NCBI GenBank assembly: GCA_023432655.1
Contig: JAEYUK010000358.1
Span: 1 to 16,418, forward strand
DNA length: 16,418 nt
Source: Pseudomonadota bacterium
GTDB taxonomy: Bacteria; Bdellovibrionota; Bacteriovoracia; Bacteriovoracales; Bacteriovoracaceae
Reading direction: 5' to 3'
The notes under the pieces: model-generated
What the model was told of the DNA's origin: nothing
Databases searched by the model: none
Seen by the model: only the letters and a program-made list of their open reading frames with translations
Program-made: the position numbers and the translations under genes
Part shown: one piece after another, positions 2,205 to 8,859 of the stretch
Numbering within the stretch: the first letter of the stretch is position 1
How the letters are laid out: every line of letters begins with the position of its first letter

Positions 2205-3005
2205 ATGGAAGAAAATTCAAATCCTGAAGTTGTTCAAGCAACCCCCCAGGAAACGGCCGGAGCGGCAGCACCCCTTATATCTAAGAAAGATAAGTTCATT
2301 AAAGAAGTAAAGTCATTTACCTTCATCATTCTTTCAGTGCTGATTTTTAGATCAGTCTTGTTTGAGCCGTTTAAAATTCCATCGGGCTCAATGATCCCAA
2401 CACTTCTGATCGGTGATTTTATCCTGGTAAATAAGTTTTCCTACGGTTTCAAGGTCCCTTTCAGTGATTGGTTCACTGATCCTATTTATATCACTGGTCC
2501 ATCTCAACCAGAGCGCGGGGATGTGATTGTTTTTAAATACCCGAAAGACACAAATCTTAACTACATTAAACGCGTGATCGGTCTTCCCGGAGACACCATC
2601 GAAGTGATTGATAAAGTGGTTTATGTGAATAATAAGCCCATTGAGACTAAAGAAATTGATGGCAAAGAAATTTTAGAAGACATGGATGATCGTTACCGCG
2701 CTTATCAGTTTAAGTTCATGGAAACTAAAACTGGGGATGCAACTCACGTGACTCAGGTAGATATGGGGAATGATTACTTTGCAAACTACTATAAGTACAC
2801 TGTTCCGAAAGATAACTACTTTGTAATGGGTGATAACCGCGATTTCTCGGCTGATTCTCGTCGCTGGGGAACTGTTCCTTTTGGTCACATTAAAGGAAAA
2901 GCGATTTTAACTTGGTTCTCGCTTTCTGTGCCTTGGCCTTGGAGTGAGGATGAGCAAGAGTCATGGAAGTTTCGTCCATGGCGTATTGGTAAAATGATTG
3001 ATTAA
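2205..3005 (+). CDS. lepB: Signal peptidase I
   Basis: This 266-residue protein is leader peptidase, which removes signal peptides from secreted preproteins at the outer face of the inner membrane. A Pro/Ala-rich cytoplasmic tail (1-28) precedes a single membrane helix (about 34-54). The catalytic Ser is S62 in PSGSMIPTL and the general-base Lys is K122 in YIKRVIGLPGD. The conserved GDNRDFSADSRRWG box follows near residue 207. An insertion between the Lys region and this box (about 140-195) is typical of Gram-negative enzymes. AAAAGG at 2191-2196 gives a good ribosome site. The gene ends its operon, directly before the terminator at 3015. The periplasmic and secreted proteins in this window with predicted signal peptides would be its substrates. 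Confidence 0.95.
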   Translation: MEENSNPEVVQATPQETAGAAAPLISKKDKFIKEVKSFTFIILSVLIFRSVLFEPFKIPSGSMIPTLLIGDFILVNKFSYGFKVPFSDWFTDPIYITGPSQPERGDVIVFKYPKDTNLNYIKRVIGLPGDTIEVIDKVVYVNNKPIETKEIDGKEILEDMDDRYRAYQFKFMETKTGDATHVTQVDMGNDYFANYYKYTVPKDNYFVMGDNRDFSADSRRWGTVPFGHIKGKAILTWFSLSVPWPWSEDEQESWKFRPWRIGKMID

Positions 3006-3014
3006 GTTTTTAAG

Positions 3015-3042
3015 ACCCCGGTTATGCCGGGGTTTTTATTTT
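3015..3042 (+). terminator. Rho-independent terminator after lepB
   Basis: ACCCCGG (3015-3021), a TTATG loop and CCGGGGT (3027-3033) form a 7-bp GC-rich stem followed by a T-rich tract (3033-3042). It ends the rlmE-transpeptidase-lepB transcript. The tail overlaps the mutS2 stop codon (3036-3038, minus). On the minus strand the hairpin is followed by CTTAAAAAC rather than a T run, so it is a weaker terminator for mutS2. Confidence 0.88.
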
Positions 3043-5405
3043 AGAGTGATCTTTGTTTCACCATCATTCCCATTCTCAGGTGGTGCTCCCTGAAAATCTC
3101 TGGAGCGCTTTAAGTAATCTCTGAGCCAATTCTTCAAGACTCCATCTCCATGCCCATGAATAACACTTATATAAGGCACGTCTCCTGATAAGAGATCTCC
3201 TAGGGCGTTTTCGATGAGGTTTTGAAACTCAGATAATCTCATCCCACGCACGTCAAATTCGAGCTGAGAGTTGGAAGTTTTAACAAAGCTCACGGAAACC
3301 TTAGGCTTAACCGGAGCACGTTTTGAACGTCCCAATGTGTGGACTGGGACAGTCATTTTGATCGGCCCCTTGGCGATAGTGATTTCACTTCGGCGAGGAT
3401 CAATACTCTGAACGACAAATTCCTTTTTAAGGGTGAAGGAATAAACCACATCCCCTTTTTTAACGGTGCTTATATCGAGATCACTTTCGGGTGGTAATTC
3501 CTCTTGGGATACCGGCATCTCGCCACCGAGTCGGGAAATTTGAGACTTAAGCTGATGAGCCTTTTCATCCACTCTTTTTACTTTTTGGATTTCATTCCGG
3601 CGGGCCTCTTCCACCAGTGCCCGAGCTTCATTCAGGATTTTATCTACTTCCTGACGGGCCTTGGTGAGTTCCTCTTTCATCTTAAGATTAAGAATCCCTT
3701 CCATAGCGCCTTTTTGATTTTTTAATTCCATTTCTAAACGGCGATTAGAGTTTAGGATTTTATCGAGTTCAATTTGTTTTTGGGAAACTCGCTGGAGGAG
3801 AGTTTCATAGCTTACGTTTTTTGTACTTAAGTGAGAGAGAGCTTTCTCTGGAACATCCTTCACCCCGGGGTTATTCCGGGAGAGGATTTTAAAGATATCA
3901 ATCGCCATGGAGGCACCGGGAGTGCCCCATTGAATTTTATAGGTAGGTTTCATGCTTTCGGTGTCAAATCCTACGTGACAAGAAATGTAGCTTCGATCCT
4001 GGTGAATCAAAGTCTTAAACATCTGATGGTGGGTAGATACCACGATATGGCAGGTCGCTTTCTTATGAAGTTCATCAAAGTAGGCCATGGAGAGGGCCGA
4101 TGCCTCATCGGAAGAAGTGGAGTTAAAAATTTCATCGATTAAAATGAGATTTGAGGGAAGAATATTTTCCATCAGTTCGATGTAGTTTTTTACTTCTCCC
4201 GAAAAGGAACTGAGTCCGGTTTTTAGATCCTGAAGATCATTTCCAAAATAGAAGAGACCTTCATAAGGATACATTTCAGCTTCCGCCGCCGGAACAAAGA
4301 AGCCGTGATAAAAAAGTAAGTAAGAAAGTGTAATGGATTTAAGGAAAACTGTCTTTCCACCGGTGTTGGGACCCGAGATGACAATCCCATGATCTCTTTG
4401 ATGGCAGTCAGCATTGTTCTTAACGGCGTTTTTTATCAGAGGATGGAAGAGCTGGGTGAATTTAAAGCCGGGTGTTTCTTTAATTGTAGGAGACTCTAAA
4501 TTGTAGCGATAAGCAAAATCACTTTTTGCTAGATAGAAATCAATTTTTGTTATGAGCTGCAAGGATTCATCAGAGAGCGGGGAGAAATCGGCCAGCTGCT
4601 TTGAGAACTTGATAGTTAACTGATTGATAATTTCATCAATTTTAGCAATGAGCTCGAGTCTTCGATTACAGGTGTCTCTTATTTCAAAAGGCTCCACAAA
4701 GAGGGTCTGACCTGATTCCGAACGTGAAATAATAAACCCAATATCGGAGCGATAGGAATCAGTTCGGACCGGTACGACGAAGCGGTCATAGTGAACGTCG
4801 TAGCTATTGTATTGGAGAAGCTTTTGATTCGCGGGTTGAGTGATCCAATCCTGGACCGTTCTTCGAATGCGCTCTTCTAATTCCCGTAGTCTTTGATGGA
4901 GTTCCGACAACTCCGGATGGCGATCAAAATGGACTTCTCCTGAGCTGTCCACCAGGTGTCTGAACTCTCTTAAAAATTTCCGCTGAACTGGTTGGAAATC
5001 AATCTGTGAGACAGCACTAAATTCCGCCAAATTAAACTTGGGTAAATCTTGTTTGATGAACAGCGCGCTCTCGATGAGGAGCGCCACTTTATTAAGTTCA
5101 CTAAATGACAGCACTCCATCTTTCTTAAGATGAAGAATATGACGCTCAAGTGAGTTGTCTTCGGGAAGCTTACTTAGGAGTTGTTTAAAAACCTGGCGGT
5201 AATCTTCTTTAAACTCCTGAAGGTAAGACTTCGTGCGGACAAATTCCAGGGCCAGATCACCCCAGCGGCCAATAAAAAGCTCTTCCATGAGAGCTTTCTT
5301 ATTACGTTCAAAAAAAGCAAATTGAGCTATAATGCCTGAAAGGACATCCCATTCGACCTGTGTGTGGTGCACGGAATGTTGAGTGGTGATGAGATTAATA
5401 GTCAT
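3036..5405 (-). CDS. mutS2: MutS2 family ATPase with KOW and Smr domains
   Basis: At 789 residues this has the MutS2 length and order: core/clamp helices (1-330), ABC-type ATPase with Walker A GPNTGGKT near 343-351 and Walker B LILIDE near 418-424, a charged coiled coil (about 520-640), a KOW-like beta segment (GDVVYSFTLKKEFVV, about 650-690) and a C-terminal Smr domain (FDVRGMR, then HGHGDGVLKNW). It lacks the mismatch-recognition N-terminal domain of MutS. In Firmicutes, MutS2 binds collided ribosomes and splits or rescues them; older work proposed an anti-recombination role. The stretch after Walker B (DEIFNSTSSDEAS) departs from the DELGxGTDPxEG usual in MutS2. I chose the ATG at 5405 rather than the TTG at 5414 because a predicted promoter would start RNA between them. 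It is head-to-head with the rqcH-like gene. Confidence 0.92.
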   Translation of the reverse strand: MTINLITTQHSVHHTQVEWDVLSGIIAQFAFFERNKKALMEELFIGRWGDLALEFVRTKSYLQEFKEDYRQVFKQLLSKLPEDNSLERHILHLKKDGVLSFSELNKVALLIESALFIKQDLPKFNLAEFSAVSQIDFQPVQRKFLREFRHLVDSSGEVHFDRHPELSELHQRLRELEERIRRTVQDWITQPANQKLLQYNSYDVHYDRFVVPVRTDSYRSDIGFIISRSESGQTLFVEPFEIRDTCNRRLELIAKIDEIINQLTIKFSKQLADFSPLSDESLQLITKIDFYLAKSDFAYRYNLESPTIKETPGFKFTQLFHPLIKNAVKNNADCHQRDHGIVISGPNTGGKTVFLKSITLSYLLFYHGFFVPAAEAEMYPYEGLFYFGNDLQDLKTGLSSFSGEVKNYIELMENILPSNLILIDEIFNSTSSDEASALSMAYFDELHKKATCHIVVSTHHQMFKTLIHQDRSYISCHVGFDTESMKPTYKIQWGTPGASMAIDIFKILSRNNPGVKDVPEKALSHLSTKNVSYETLLQRVSQKQIELDKILNSNRRLEMELKNQKGAMEGILNLKMKEELTKARQEVDKILNEARALVEEARRNEIQKVKRVDEKAHQLKSQISRLGGEMPVSQEELPPESDLDISTVKKGDVVYSFTLKKEFVVQSIDPRRSEITIAKGPIKMTVPVHTLGRSKRAPVKPKVSVSFVKTSNSQLEFDVRGMRLSEFQNLIENALGDLLSGDVPYISVIHGHGDGVLKNWLRDYLKRSRDFQGAPPENGNDGETKITLK
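5328..5333 (+). promoter_or_regulatory. Candidate -10 element for rqcH-like gene, inside mutS2
   Basis: A perfect TATAAT lies 72 bases before the rqcH-like ATG, within the mutS2 coding sequence on the opposite strand. The best -35 is poor: GTTCAA at 5306-5311, with 16 bases spacing. If used, RNA would start near 5340 and the leader would be antisense to the first codons of mutS2. This is pattern matching only. Confidence 0.35.
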
Positions 5406-6740
5406 ATGATCCAATATTATCTTGATTTAGAAAAACAGGTCAAAAATATCAAAGAAAAGGCGCTCTCCCAAGGGCAAATTCAGAAACTTTACAGCACGGC
5501 TTACTATATTAGTTTATCCATTCGAGCCCCGGGAAAAACCTGGCATCTTTTCTTCGGACGCGGCAGTGGCTTTGAAGGTGTGTGGCTCCATGATTCACCT
5601 CCTCCTTCTGTGTTAAGAAGAAAAGATAACTTTTTAGAATACTTGAGAAGGCATTTATCTTCCTGCAGTTTTTTAGATGTCACTCTGGACCGCTTTGATC
5701 GGATCGTGAAACTCACGTATCAGAAATTTGGAAAAGAACAATCTTTCCTTTGGTTTTGGCGTGGTCGAAAACTCTATTTTTTACATCACTATATGGAGCG
5801 GCCAGAAACTCCTTTTAAAATACTTTTGAGCTGGCGAAATAAATCCTTTATCCCAGAGGGCGAAGATCCTGATCTCTTTTCCTACTTTGATGAAATTGGC
5901 CGGCACCAGGACATGAATCATGACTTATTCTCACCAGTTTTACCGACGATGGATGTTCTCCTGGCGGAAGAACTAAAAGTTGCCGAGTTGAAGGATGTAA
6001 CTTCTGTGCCAACTTTTCTTCAAAGAAAAAAAGTTAACATCGAAGCCGATCTTAGAAAGGCCGAGCAGTGGCAAAAGCTTCAGGCGCTACTGGATAAACA
6101 ACATCCTCTAGAGAATGTTTATGAACTTAAAGTGGATGATCAAAAAATTAAATTTGAAGGGGAGCTTAATCCTTATGAACGAAGAAACCTGGTTTTTGAA
6201 AAAATCAAAAAACTAAAACGAGGTGAGAAAATTCTTAAGGAGCGATTGGGTCAAGTTGAAGAGCAGCTGACAGGAAAAGAGTTAGTTAAGGCCAAAGAAT
6301 CTAAAATCCCTATGGTCCGTCCGATTTGGGGAGAAGAAACTAAGACCCCTGTCATTCAGCCAGCAAAGGTCACCGAAAATTATCGGGTTTTTTCCATTGA
6401 AGGCTGCCAAATCGGTGTAGGCCTTAATGCCCAGGGAAATGACCAGCTTAGAAGCCGTTGGGCGAATAAAGAAGATCATTGGATTCACTTGGATGGCCAC
6501 AAAAGTACCCATGTTATTATTAAGTTAACCGGTACTCAGTCGATAAGTTCCGAGCTTTTAAACTTAGGAGCCTCGATAGTTGCCCATTTTTCTCGTTTTG
6601 GAGATGATTGGATTCCAATTATTTACACCCAGGTGAAAAATTTGAAAGGTGTTTCGGGGGCCCCAGGTATGGTAATATACAAAAAAGAAAAACATCTAAG
6701 ATGTCCTAGAAAAGCTGTGGATGATCTTATTAAGGATTAA
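5406..6740 (+). CDS. rqcH: RqcH-like NFACT protein (ribosome-associated quality control)
   Basis: The 444-residue protein has the NFACT layout of RqcH/NEMF/Rqc2. An NFACT-N-like part (about 1-190) contains the GRGSGFEGVWLHD segment and a Phe-Asp-Arg at F97-D98-R99, matching in place the DR pair that RqcH needs for alanine tailing. A charged helical, probably coiled-coil part follows (about 200-310). The C-terminal NFACT-R domain (about 335-444) has GVGLNAQGND, DHWIHLDG and THVII, and ends with the expected APGMVIYKKEK strand. In bacteria RqcH binds peptidyl-tRNA-blocked large subunits and adds C-terminal alanine tails as degradation tags. It is shorter than Firmicutes RqcH (about 570), mainly in the middle, where I see no clear helix-hairpin-helix. 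The ATG at 5406 fits the family N-terminus; ATG 5376 is in frame but would overlap mutS2. Older annotations may call it fibronectin-binding protein. Confidence 0.83.
   Translation: MIQYYLDLEKQVKNIKEKALSQGQIQKLYSTAYYISLSIRAPGKTWHLFFGRGSGFEGVWLHDSPPPSVLRRKDNFLEYLRRHLSSCSFLDVTLDRFDRIVKLTYQKFGKEQSFLWFWRGRKLYFLHHYMERPETPFKILLSWRNKSFIPEGEDPDLFSYFDEIGRHQDMNHDLFSPVLPTMDVLLAEELKVAELKDVTSVPTFLQRKKVNIEADLRKAEQWQKLQALLDKQHPLENVYELKVDDQKIKFEGELNPYERRNLVFEKIKKLKRGEKILKERLGQVEEQLTGKELVKAKESKIPMVRPIWGEETKTPVIQPAKVTENYRVFSIEGCQIGVGLNAQGNDQLRSRWANKEDHWIHLDGHKSTHVIIKLTGTQSISSELLNLGASIVAHFSRFGDDWIPIIYTQVKNLKGVSGAPGMVIYKKEKHLRCPRKAVDDLIKD
5416..5443 (-). promoter_or_regulatory. Candidate sigma70 promoter for mutS2, inside rqcH-like gene
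   Basis: On the minus strand TTGACC (5443-5438) and GATAAT (5421-5416), each one base from consensus, are separated by 16 bases. The expected RNA start is near 5409, about four bases before the mutS2 ATG at 5405. This would give an essentially leaderless mRNA, which agrees with the lack of a Shine-Dalgarno sequence there. The promoter lies within codons 4-13 of the rqcH-like gene. Confidence 0.5.
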
Positions 6741-7668: not shown

Positions 7669-8859
7669 GTGCGCTCATTATCTCTAAGCAAAAGCGGAAT
7701 TAATAAAATTCGTAGCAATCTTTTTGAACTAAAGGCCAGTGATTTTGAAGGGTCGATTAAATCTATTCCTTCGGGTGAATGGTGTATCTTAAGTTGGGGA
7801 CCTCAGGATTACGGCATTGGTTTCTTGAACCCCATGATCGAAGATAAGTATTCTTGTGCTTCTTTGGTGGGGAAATTATCCAAAGAGGCCCTGACGAATT
7901 TCTCGGTTGAAAATTTTATTTCAGACAAATTAAAAGAGGCCTTTGAAAAACGGCAAAAAATAAAAGGTTACGAAAAAAACGCCCGAATCTTTTACGGTGT
8001 AAGTGACGGATTACCGGGACTCATCATTGATCTCTTTCACAATGCTGCCATCATTCAGATTAATACTGCGGGTGTTGATAGGTTTAGAGAACATATTAAA
8101 AAAACGATTACTGAGCTTACTGGAACTCACGCCTACTTTCTGGATAATCCAAAATATCGCGAAAAAGAGTTCCTTCCCACTTTTCATAACGAAGCTTTGC
8201 CTGACCTGGAAGTTGAAGAGAATAATCTTAAATATAAAATCCGTTCTGAAGTATTACAAAAAGTCGGATTCTATTATGACCACCGGGAGAATCGGTATAA
8301 TCTTATGCAGCTCCTCTCACGTCTCAATCAGGAGTTCTCATCAGGCCTTGATCTTTTCTCCTATGCTGGTGCCTGGGGAATGAGTGGCCTTAAAGCTGGC
8401 GTAAAGGAATTGCATTTTGTGGATCAGGGAGACTTTGCCGTTGAAGTCACAGAAGCTCTAAAGCTTAATGGATTTGAAGGCAGAGGGAATTTTTACCGCA
8501 GTGATGTCTTCAAATATCTCGATGAAGCGATTCAGAAGAATAAAAAATTTGATCTGATCCTTTGTGATCCGCCAGCCTTTGCGAAAAGCGCTCTTCACAA
8601 AAATCAAGCACTCGAAGGTTATAGCAAGCTTCATCGGAAAGTGTTTAAGGTTCTAACGGAAGCTTCAATTGTGGCGTTCTCATCTTGTACTCATTATGTG
8701 AGTCATGAAGAGTTTCAAAAAAACATCCAGGACGCAGCTTCTCGGGAGAATAAAAAAATTCAGTTAATTTATTGTGGCATGCAAGGTTTTGATCATCCGG
8801 TCAAATCTCTGGAAGATCGATCAAATTATATTAAAAGTTATTTTTATAGCGTGGAGTAG
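7669..8859 (+). CDS. rlmI: RlmI-like 23S rRNA cytosine-C5 methyltransferase
   Basis: This 396-residue protein matches the RlmI/class I SAM methyltransferase layout. It has an N-terminal PUA-like part (about 1-75), a central segment with FYGVSDGLPGLIIDLF and KVGFYYDHRENR, and a Rossmann methyltransferase domain. In that domain motif I is LDLFSYAGAWG, motif IV is D300-PPAFAKS, and the presumed catalytic Cys is C340 in SSCTHYV. RlmI makes m5C1962 in E. coli 23S rRNA. The target here is inferred, because paralogues such as RlmK/RlmL share parts of this architecture. The start is a GTG, preceded by AGGTG (7660-7664) four bases upstream. It leads a long operon, with its stop only three bases before moxR. 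Confidence 0.85.
   Translation: MRSLSLSKSGINKIRSNLFELKASDFEGSIKSIPSGEWCILSWGPQDYGIGFLNPMIEDKYSCASLVGKLSKEALTNFSVENFISDKLKEAFEKRQKIKGYEKNARIFYGVSDGLPGLIIDLFHNAAIIQINTAGVDRFREHIKKTITELTGTHAYFLDNPKYREKEFLPTFHNEALPDLEVEENNLKYKIRSEVLQKVGFYYDHRENRYNLMQLLSRLNQEFSSGLDLFSYAGAWGMSGLKAGVKELHFVDQGDFAVEVTEALKLNGFEGRGNFYRSDVFKYLDEAIQKNKKFDLILCDPPAFAKSALHKNQALEGYSKLHRKVFKVLTEASIVAFSSCTHYVSHEEFQKNIQDAASRENKKIQLIYCGMQGFDHPVKSLEDRSNYIKSYFYSVE

Follow-up and report, generated by a model that had tools for sequence, protein, structure and literature searches.

The closest described counterpart of the locus considered here is the MutS2/RqcU-RqcH system of Bacillus subtilis, in which, according to excerpts of PMC10897456 and PMC11633108, MutS2 splits ribosomes that have collided, after which the chain is tailed by RqcH. 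MutS2 is the upstream factor of the two, and deletion of either one abolishes alanine (Ala) tails at a stall (PMC10897456, in excerpt). As for their distribution, MutS2 is present in 97% of RqcH-bearing genomes, and rqcH and mutS2 were each recorded in 5/6 Bdellovibrionota genomes (PMC11633108, in excerpt). What the excerpts of these pathway papers report is co-occurrence and biochemistry, not gene order; in PMC11633108 the word "adjacent" is absent, as are "operon" and "neighbor" from PMC10897456, and no paper on mutS2-rqcH adjacency was found in the open-licence literature searched. Here we describe a locus at which members of the same two protein families are encoded head-to-head, by mutS2 and an rqcH-like gene whose ATG start codons directly abut. 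It lies in a 16,418-nucleotide (nt) stretch of DNA, hereafter the window (contig JAEYUK010000358.1 of assembly GCA_023432655.1, placed by GTDB in the Bacteriovoracaceae of the Bdellovibrionota).

In an excludon, divergent neighbors give antisense-overlapping transcripts, and mutual repression may follow. The locus resembles excludons, and overlapping 5'-antisense transcripts in general, in having divergent neighbors with a predicted antisense overlap; unlike in an excludon, it is the start codons that abut or overlap, and the two promoters, both predictions, fall within coding sequence. Where promoters stand face-to-face, the polymerases of the opposed promoters run into each other (transcriptional interference); the promoters proposed here are likewise opposed, but they are predictions and belong to a chromosomal housekeeping pair. 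The locus is also akin to short divergent overlaps, in which genes overlap at their 5' ends (excerpts of PMC2174442 and PMC2478687). Such overlaps are strongly under-represented in prokaryotes (PMC2174442) and number 457 cases, ~1% of well-characterised overlaps (PMC2478687). Unlike the rare divergent overlaps surveyed in those excerpts, the one described here is a single overlap retained over most of a class.

A head-to-head pair with abutting start codons

In the window, the mutS2 ATG (5405-5403) and the rqcH-like ATG (5406-5408) stand with zero bases between them, and both open reading frames (ORFs) are open (Table 1). Relatives support the same starts: MIQY, residues 1-4 of the RqcH-like protein, is invariant in 20 aligned proteins, the window's included, and a scan of contigs found mutS2 divergent from and adjacent to the RqcH-like gene at 26/26 loci, with residues 1 of both proteins exactly back to back at 22/26. 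At the other four (L020, L024-L026) the ATGs overlap as CATG, a form in which they have the bases AT in common. Close homologs that carry names come from Peredibacter and Bacteriovoracaceae, as do the names of most contig-scan loci, and the nearest loci belong by NCBI ranks to Bacteriovoracaceae, Bdellovibrionota. An alternative mutS2 start exists as an in-frame TTG at 5414, the use of which would only lengthen the overlap. Annotation error as the source of the abutting starts was rejected, because the relatives agree on both. The original prediction for this locus had the two ATGs abutting inside a CATATG palindrome; the abutting starts are borne out by the sequence and by those of the relatives, whereas the palindrome, although present in the window, is not the element that is conserved (see below).

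Table 1. Features of the mutS2-rqcH locus, in window coordinates.
Feature	Position	Strand	Remarks
mutS2	3036..5405	minus	789 amino acids (aa) from ATG 5405; TIGR01069 above cut-off
RqcH-like NFACT gene	5406..6740	plus	444 aa; start backed by relatives
CATATG	5403..5408	none	both ATG start codons back to back
Predicted rqcH -10, TATAAT	5328..5333	plus	inside mutS2 codons 25-26 (ATT ATA)
mutS2 codons 22-36	5298..5342	minus	strongest synonymous constraint of the 15-codon windows scored (first 480 codons)
Predicted mutS2 -10, TAATAT	5414..5419	minus	4/6 to consensus; inside rqcH codons 3-5
Predicted mutS2 -35, TTGACC	5438..5443	minus	inside rqcH codons 11-13
Putative rqcH leader	5340..5405	plus	antisense to first 22 mutS2 codons; extent taken from -10 position
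lepB	2205..3005	plus	tail-to-tail neighbor of mutS2; TIGR02227 170.2 bits, cut-off 47

The arrangement is conserved across most of the class, and its spacing is rare among divergent pairs

The abutting or overlapping arrangement is real, deeply conserved, and unusual. We searched 129 genomes of one class (that of genome G002), which we take to be Bacteriovoracia, presumably predatory in life style. An RqcH-like gene is present in 119/129; TIGR01069 gives some match in 128/129 and one above cut-off in 75, many of the weaker matches being probably MutS1. Adjacency could be judged in 110 genomes (the 119 less three at contig edges, G008, G014, and G106, and less six in which no mutS2 was found), and in 105 of these mutS2 lies divergent beside the RqcH-like gene, so the adjacency in relatives that the original prediction put forward as its check was indeed found. 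smpB was present in 19/20 genomes queried. The joint absence of both genes was not taken to prove linkage: of the 129 genomes, nine lack both, and missing assembly may explain them, five of the nine also being without a lepB match.

For the junctions, each gene's start was chosen separately as the one closest to the homologous position, ATG being favored. Among the 119 genomes the spacing is CATG in 63, CATATG in 24, within 30 nt in 15, and other in three, with no pair in 14; the starts are thus exactly abutting (CATATG) or overlapping (CATG) in 87. CATATG is limited to one branch, and most of the class has CATG. The three other junctions comprise one of 51 nt (G063), one with N in the assembly (G062), and one in which the mutS2 start is not resolved (G083). 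One pair counted among the 63 CATG genomes is very divergent (G007, locus L143), with a MutS2-like protein at 163.7 bits, below cut-off, and NFACT-R at 24.4 bits, below gathering; the stretch analysed cuts its mutS2-like gene, and it was left out of the tree.

Spacing this tight is seldom met between other divergent genes. In two control samples, each 400 kb of one genome taken as 20 stretches of 20 kb and processed with a simple gene caller that took 77-78% of bases as coding, a gap of <=5 nt occurred in 1/107 divergent pairs, the next smallest being 27 and 42 nt. On a FastTree phylogeny of 105 RqcH-like proteins (103 labelled, first 20 codons left out), the spacing class (CATG, CATATG, or near) needs 11 changes, compared with a mean of 36.8 after shuffling; the arrangement changed 9 to 11 times, some long branches in this tree making the exact count unsure.

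Identity of the two proteins

The window's MutS2 scores 443.1 bits against the NCBIfam equivalog TIGR01069 (cut-off 400) and matches the Pfam families MutS_V (79.6 bits, gathering 30.2) and Smr (47.5 bits, gathering 25.7). Its best PDB matches are chains named MutS2 (3.5e-69). The Pfam search gave no KOW match; the region between the coiled coil and Smr aligns, as part of a long alignment, with a MutS2 PDB chain.

The partner matches NFACT_N (37.9 bits, gathering 31) and NFACT-R_1 (38.5 bits, gathering 29.8), its best PDB sequence matches are RqcH chains, and the top Foldseek match of its predicted model is RqcH (E 1.6e-14), with RqcH/NEMF chains fitting best. Residues D98 and R99 are invariant in 20/20 aligned close homologs, the window's included, and in a profile that includes four full-length relatives they align with Asp97-Arg98 of B. 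subtilis RqcH, a motif that matters for tRNA-Ala (excerpts of PMC8373112). Aligned against four full-length NFACT proteins, members of the class have no residues across the HhH domain and also lack a portion of NFACT-N; in place of HhH, the model has strands followed by a short helix (157-164) and a further helix (182-197). The class protein is ~440 aa long, compared with ~580 aa for full-length homologs, and scores far below the NCBIfam cut-offs of RqcH_arch (57.8 versus 400 bits) and EfbA (63.9 versus 1025 bits). If it works, the protein would use a trimmed tRNA-facing part. The identities originally given to the two genes hold, mutS2 by its equivalog score and its partner as an NFACT/RqcH-like family member, although the latter is without a domain typical of RqcH; because HhH is absent, we name the protein RqcH-like.

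Promoter-like signals in frozen synonymous codons of the CATATG branch

We compared 25 distinct CATATG-branch loci, the window included, of which 23 have a mutS2 sequence long enough for window scoring. Codons 22-36 of mutS2 rank 1/139 windows (z 4.46 from 23 sequences, against 0.74 as the column mean). Within them, TATAAT or a 5-of-6 variant lies 73 nt before the rqcH ATG in 23/25 loci; synonymous shuffles give a mean of 3.7 and reached 23 in 0/1000, and within 140 nt no position attained the observed count in 300 shuffles. The motif includes a rare codon: Ile26 is ATA in 23/25 loci, while ATA makes up 15% of mutS2 Ile codons, and of the 23 conserved Ile columns in mutS2 it is the most codon-frozen and the sole one in which ATA is commonest. 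Codon freezing is local in extent. Among the Ile, Phe, Asn, and Lys columns examined, the most frozen in mutS2 are Ile26, Phe32 and Phe29, Asn35, and Lys36.

A corresponding signal lies on the other side of the junction. A predicted mutS2 promoter, TTGACC-18-TAATAT (5443-5414), falls within rqcH codons 3-13, and a GATAAT at 5421-5416 overlaps its -10. TAATAT-like sequence is present at this -10 offset in 23/25 loci (shuffle mean 12.9, 0/1000), and the -35 offset matches TTGACA at >=5/6 positions in 16/25 (shuffle mean 4.4, 0/1000). For Gln, Tyr, Asp, and Lys, freezing in rqcH is strongest at columns 3, 5, 7, and 13, respectively, whereas Val and Leu peak at 426 and 416. Comparison between columns within one gene guards against relatedness, which codon shuffles do not; the residue types for it were picked after the stretches had been seen. 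Shine-Dalgarno-like (SD-like) motifs precede mutS2 in 0/88 and rqcH in 5/88 junctions, versus 42-57% of other ATG starts, a scarcity to be expected if the upstream space serves another use.

Upstream of the predicted rqcH -10, a dyad CTTATT-N8-AATAAG occurs in 12/25 CATATG loci, the window copy (5298-5317) having AAAAAG in place of AATAAG. The dyad could be an operator or a by-product of the codons. A conserved hairpin in the rqcH leader was considered and rejected: against plain shuffles, the window and four close relatives give z values from -3.3 to -2.3 and L023 one of -2.0, most of the 25 loci showing a signal that is weak or close to 0; against dinucleotide shuffles, in the window only, z is -1.59. 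A search of Rfam at gathering thresholds found nothing in the window.

The pair outside the class and its neighbors

A wider phylum set of 368 genomes (267 with a PF05670 match and 254 with a mutS2 match above cut-off) was compared by eye among the matches listed. These include three divergent near pairs outside the class, 95 (G302), 24 (G304), and ~31 nt (G303) apart, and two same-strand near pairs with rqcH before mutS2 at ~15 nt (G366) and ~12 nt (G367; loci L195, L196). In chromosome-sized records of Listeria, Fusobacterium, and Acetoanaerobium (filed among plasmids), rqcH and mutS2 are separated by hundreds of kb or more. At loci from which mutS2 is missing or has a different place in the genome, rqcH can lie directly behind lepB (L098, L134, L137, L138, L140); in L134 and L140, in which no mutS2 was found, the lepB end and the rqcH start have one base in common (1501/1501), as in a tight operon. 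Because of the looser divergent pairs outside the class and the lepB-rqcH adjacency at loci without mutS2, the tight form seems to have arisen by compaction from a divergent pair that is older.

Toward its 3' end (alignment codons 385-432, window ~6545-6701), rqcH is more codon-frozen than at its start, perhaps owing to signals for the next gene downstream, whose start is at 6721 or 6742. Inspection by eye placed an RlmE-like gene next to mutS2 in L192 (9-590) and an RlmI-like methyltransferase gene divergent from rqcH in L199 (2232-3473) and L200 (2914-4389); the window has RlmE-like (305-916) and RlmI-like (7669-8859) genes nearby. There, at 888-924, the end of rlmE (916) lies inside the pbp ORF, which could start as early as 888, and the pbp start and rlmE end contain the top synonymous-conservation windows of those genes.

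Mutual interference and its alternatives

Taken together, we lean, with modest confidence, toward a conserved head-to-head pair with embedded face-to-face promoters, whose mutual interference would set the mutS2:rqcH ratio in cis. Two face-to-face promoters, each within the partner gene, are likely in the CATATG branch on the codon evidence above. The rqcH RNA would begin near 5340 and run ~66 nt antisense through the mutS2 start, and the mutS2 RNA would begin near 5407 with almost no leader, which would leave ~68 nt of complementarity between the mRNA 5' ends, mutS2 start included. Each polymerase would then have to cross the opposing promoter. It is a reasonable inference that the genes restrain each other, balancing splitting against tailing, and the resulting ratio would, by analogy with Bacillus, tie ribosome splitting to tailing. 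That MutS2 and then RqcH act in one pathway, as the original prediction proposed, stands for Bacillus from the literature (excerpts of PMC10897456); in the literature passages no test of the pathway in the present Gram-negative lineage turned up. A stronger version, a class-wide cis switch, appears unlikely to us: facing promoters in the partner's codons would be mutually exclusive, each cell or moment would favor splitting or tailing, and selection for this antagonism would keep the overlap.

A number of observations weigh against mutual interference from embedded promoters. Six genomes have an RqcH-like gene and no mutS2 was found in them (G040, G041, G042, G059, G075, G127), their TIGR01069 matches being no better than the weak ones (E 1e-43 to 1e-51), and in five more rqcH and mutS2 lie apart (G025, G043, G044, G067, G128). 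The predicted rqcH promoter has no recognisable -35; the mutS2 -10 reaches only 4/6, and under a 5-of-6 rule no mutS2-side -10 stands out. In the CATG majority (63 loci) no common promoter layout was found: TANNNT at mutS2 -7 occurs in 21/63, a count that shuffles equal in 84/300; TANNNT at rqcH -8 occurs in 25/63, barely above shuffles (20/300); and a strong rqcH -10 at -8, though more frequent than in shuffles, is limited to 9/63 (null 1.6, 0/300). A 12-genome CATG subclade has no rqcH -10 in common, and its mutS2 motifs at -39 and -67, found in 12/12, are nearly reached by shuffles (means 8.8 and 9.8). Near the starts, the rqcH window ranks 7/121, behind the gene's own 3' end, and control genes from the same loci give 1/125 for pbp (z 5.4), 2/112 for the rlmI-like gene, 2/78 for lepB, 10/61 for rlmE, and 18/74 for the lolA-like gene (five genes had enough orthologs and five did not; the control starts were placed by eye, with a possible error of one or two codons). 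Constraint near starts is therefore common, although apart from pbp the controls have lower z. Nor are conserved promoters a proof of interference.

With the mutS2-side motif at the CATG loci explained by the amino acids, the rqcH-side one nearly so, and a strong rqcH -10 in only nine, the overlap extends beyond any single promoter layout. The original prediction that each gene's control signals lie inside its partner's coding region gains codon-level evidence in the CATATG branch but finds no common layout in the CATG majority. A rule by which both genes would be leaderless in every genome was rejected: TANNNT peaks do occur near -7 to -9, but in the CATG group the mutS2 motif follows from amino acids and the rqcH motif nearly so.

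The arrangement could also be read as frozen compaction, an account that we doubt while giving it real weight: a deletion would have removed the spacer, the first codons would carry the partner's promoter and so prevent drift, and the overlap would have no regulatory purpose. The looser divergent pairs outside the class suit this account, as do the raised codon conservation at other tight junctions (rlmE 3' end, pbp 5' end, rqcH 3' end) and the few, clustered changes on the tree, which fit a lock-in. Escape is nevertheless possible, the spacing having shifted in some lineages (+1 to +15, +51, -8 to -26), and the CATG or CATATG form was retained in 87 genomes despite RqcH-like identity down to ~35%. 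It is very unlikely, in our judgment, that the role of the frozen codons lies in translation initiation or in the protein, through AU-rich, unstructured, SD-less starts and conserved N-termini, and not in promoters. SD-like motifs are mostly missing at both starts, the RqcH-like N-terminus is conserved at the amino acid level, the in-frame mutS2 TTG overlaps the Gln3 CAA, and the control genes too are constrained near their starts; but the strongest mutS2 signal lies far from the start, in codons 22-36, and includes the rare Ile ATA in 23/25. We also consider it distinctly unlikely that the NFACT gene is not a working elongator of ribosome quality control, in which case the pair would not join collision splitting to tailing. 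The missing HhH and part of NFACT-N, and scores far below the RqcH_arch and EfbA cut-offs, speak for this, whereas the match of Asp98-Arg99 to the tRNA-Ala motif and a model closest to RqcH/NEMF chains speak against it.

At this locus, a divergent start overlap of a normally rare kind has been kept over most of a class, and in one branch the promoter-like signals are frozen synonymous codons. Gene order here links two steps of ribosome quality control in a Gram-negative lineage, independently of the biochemistry worked out in Bacillus.

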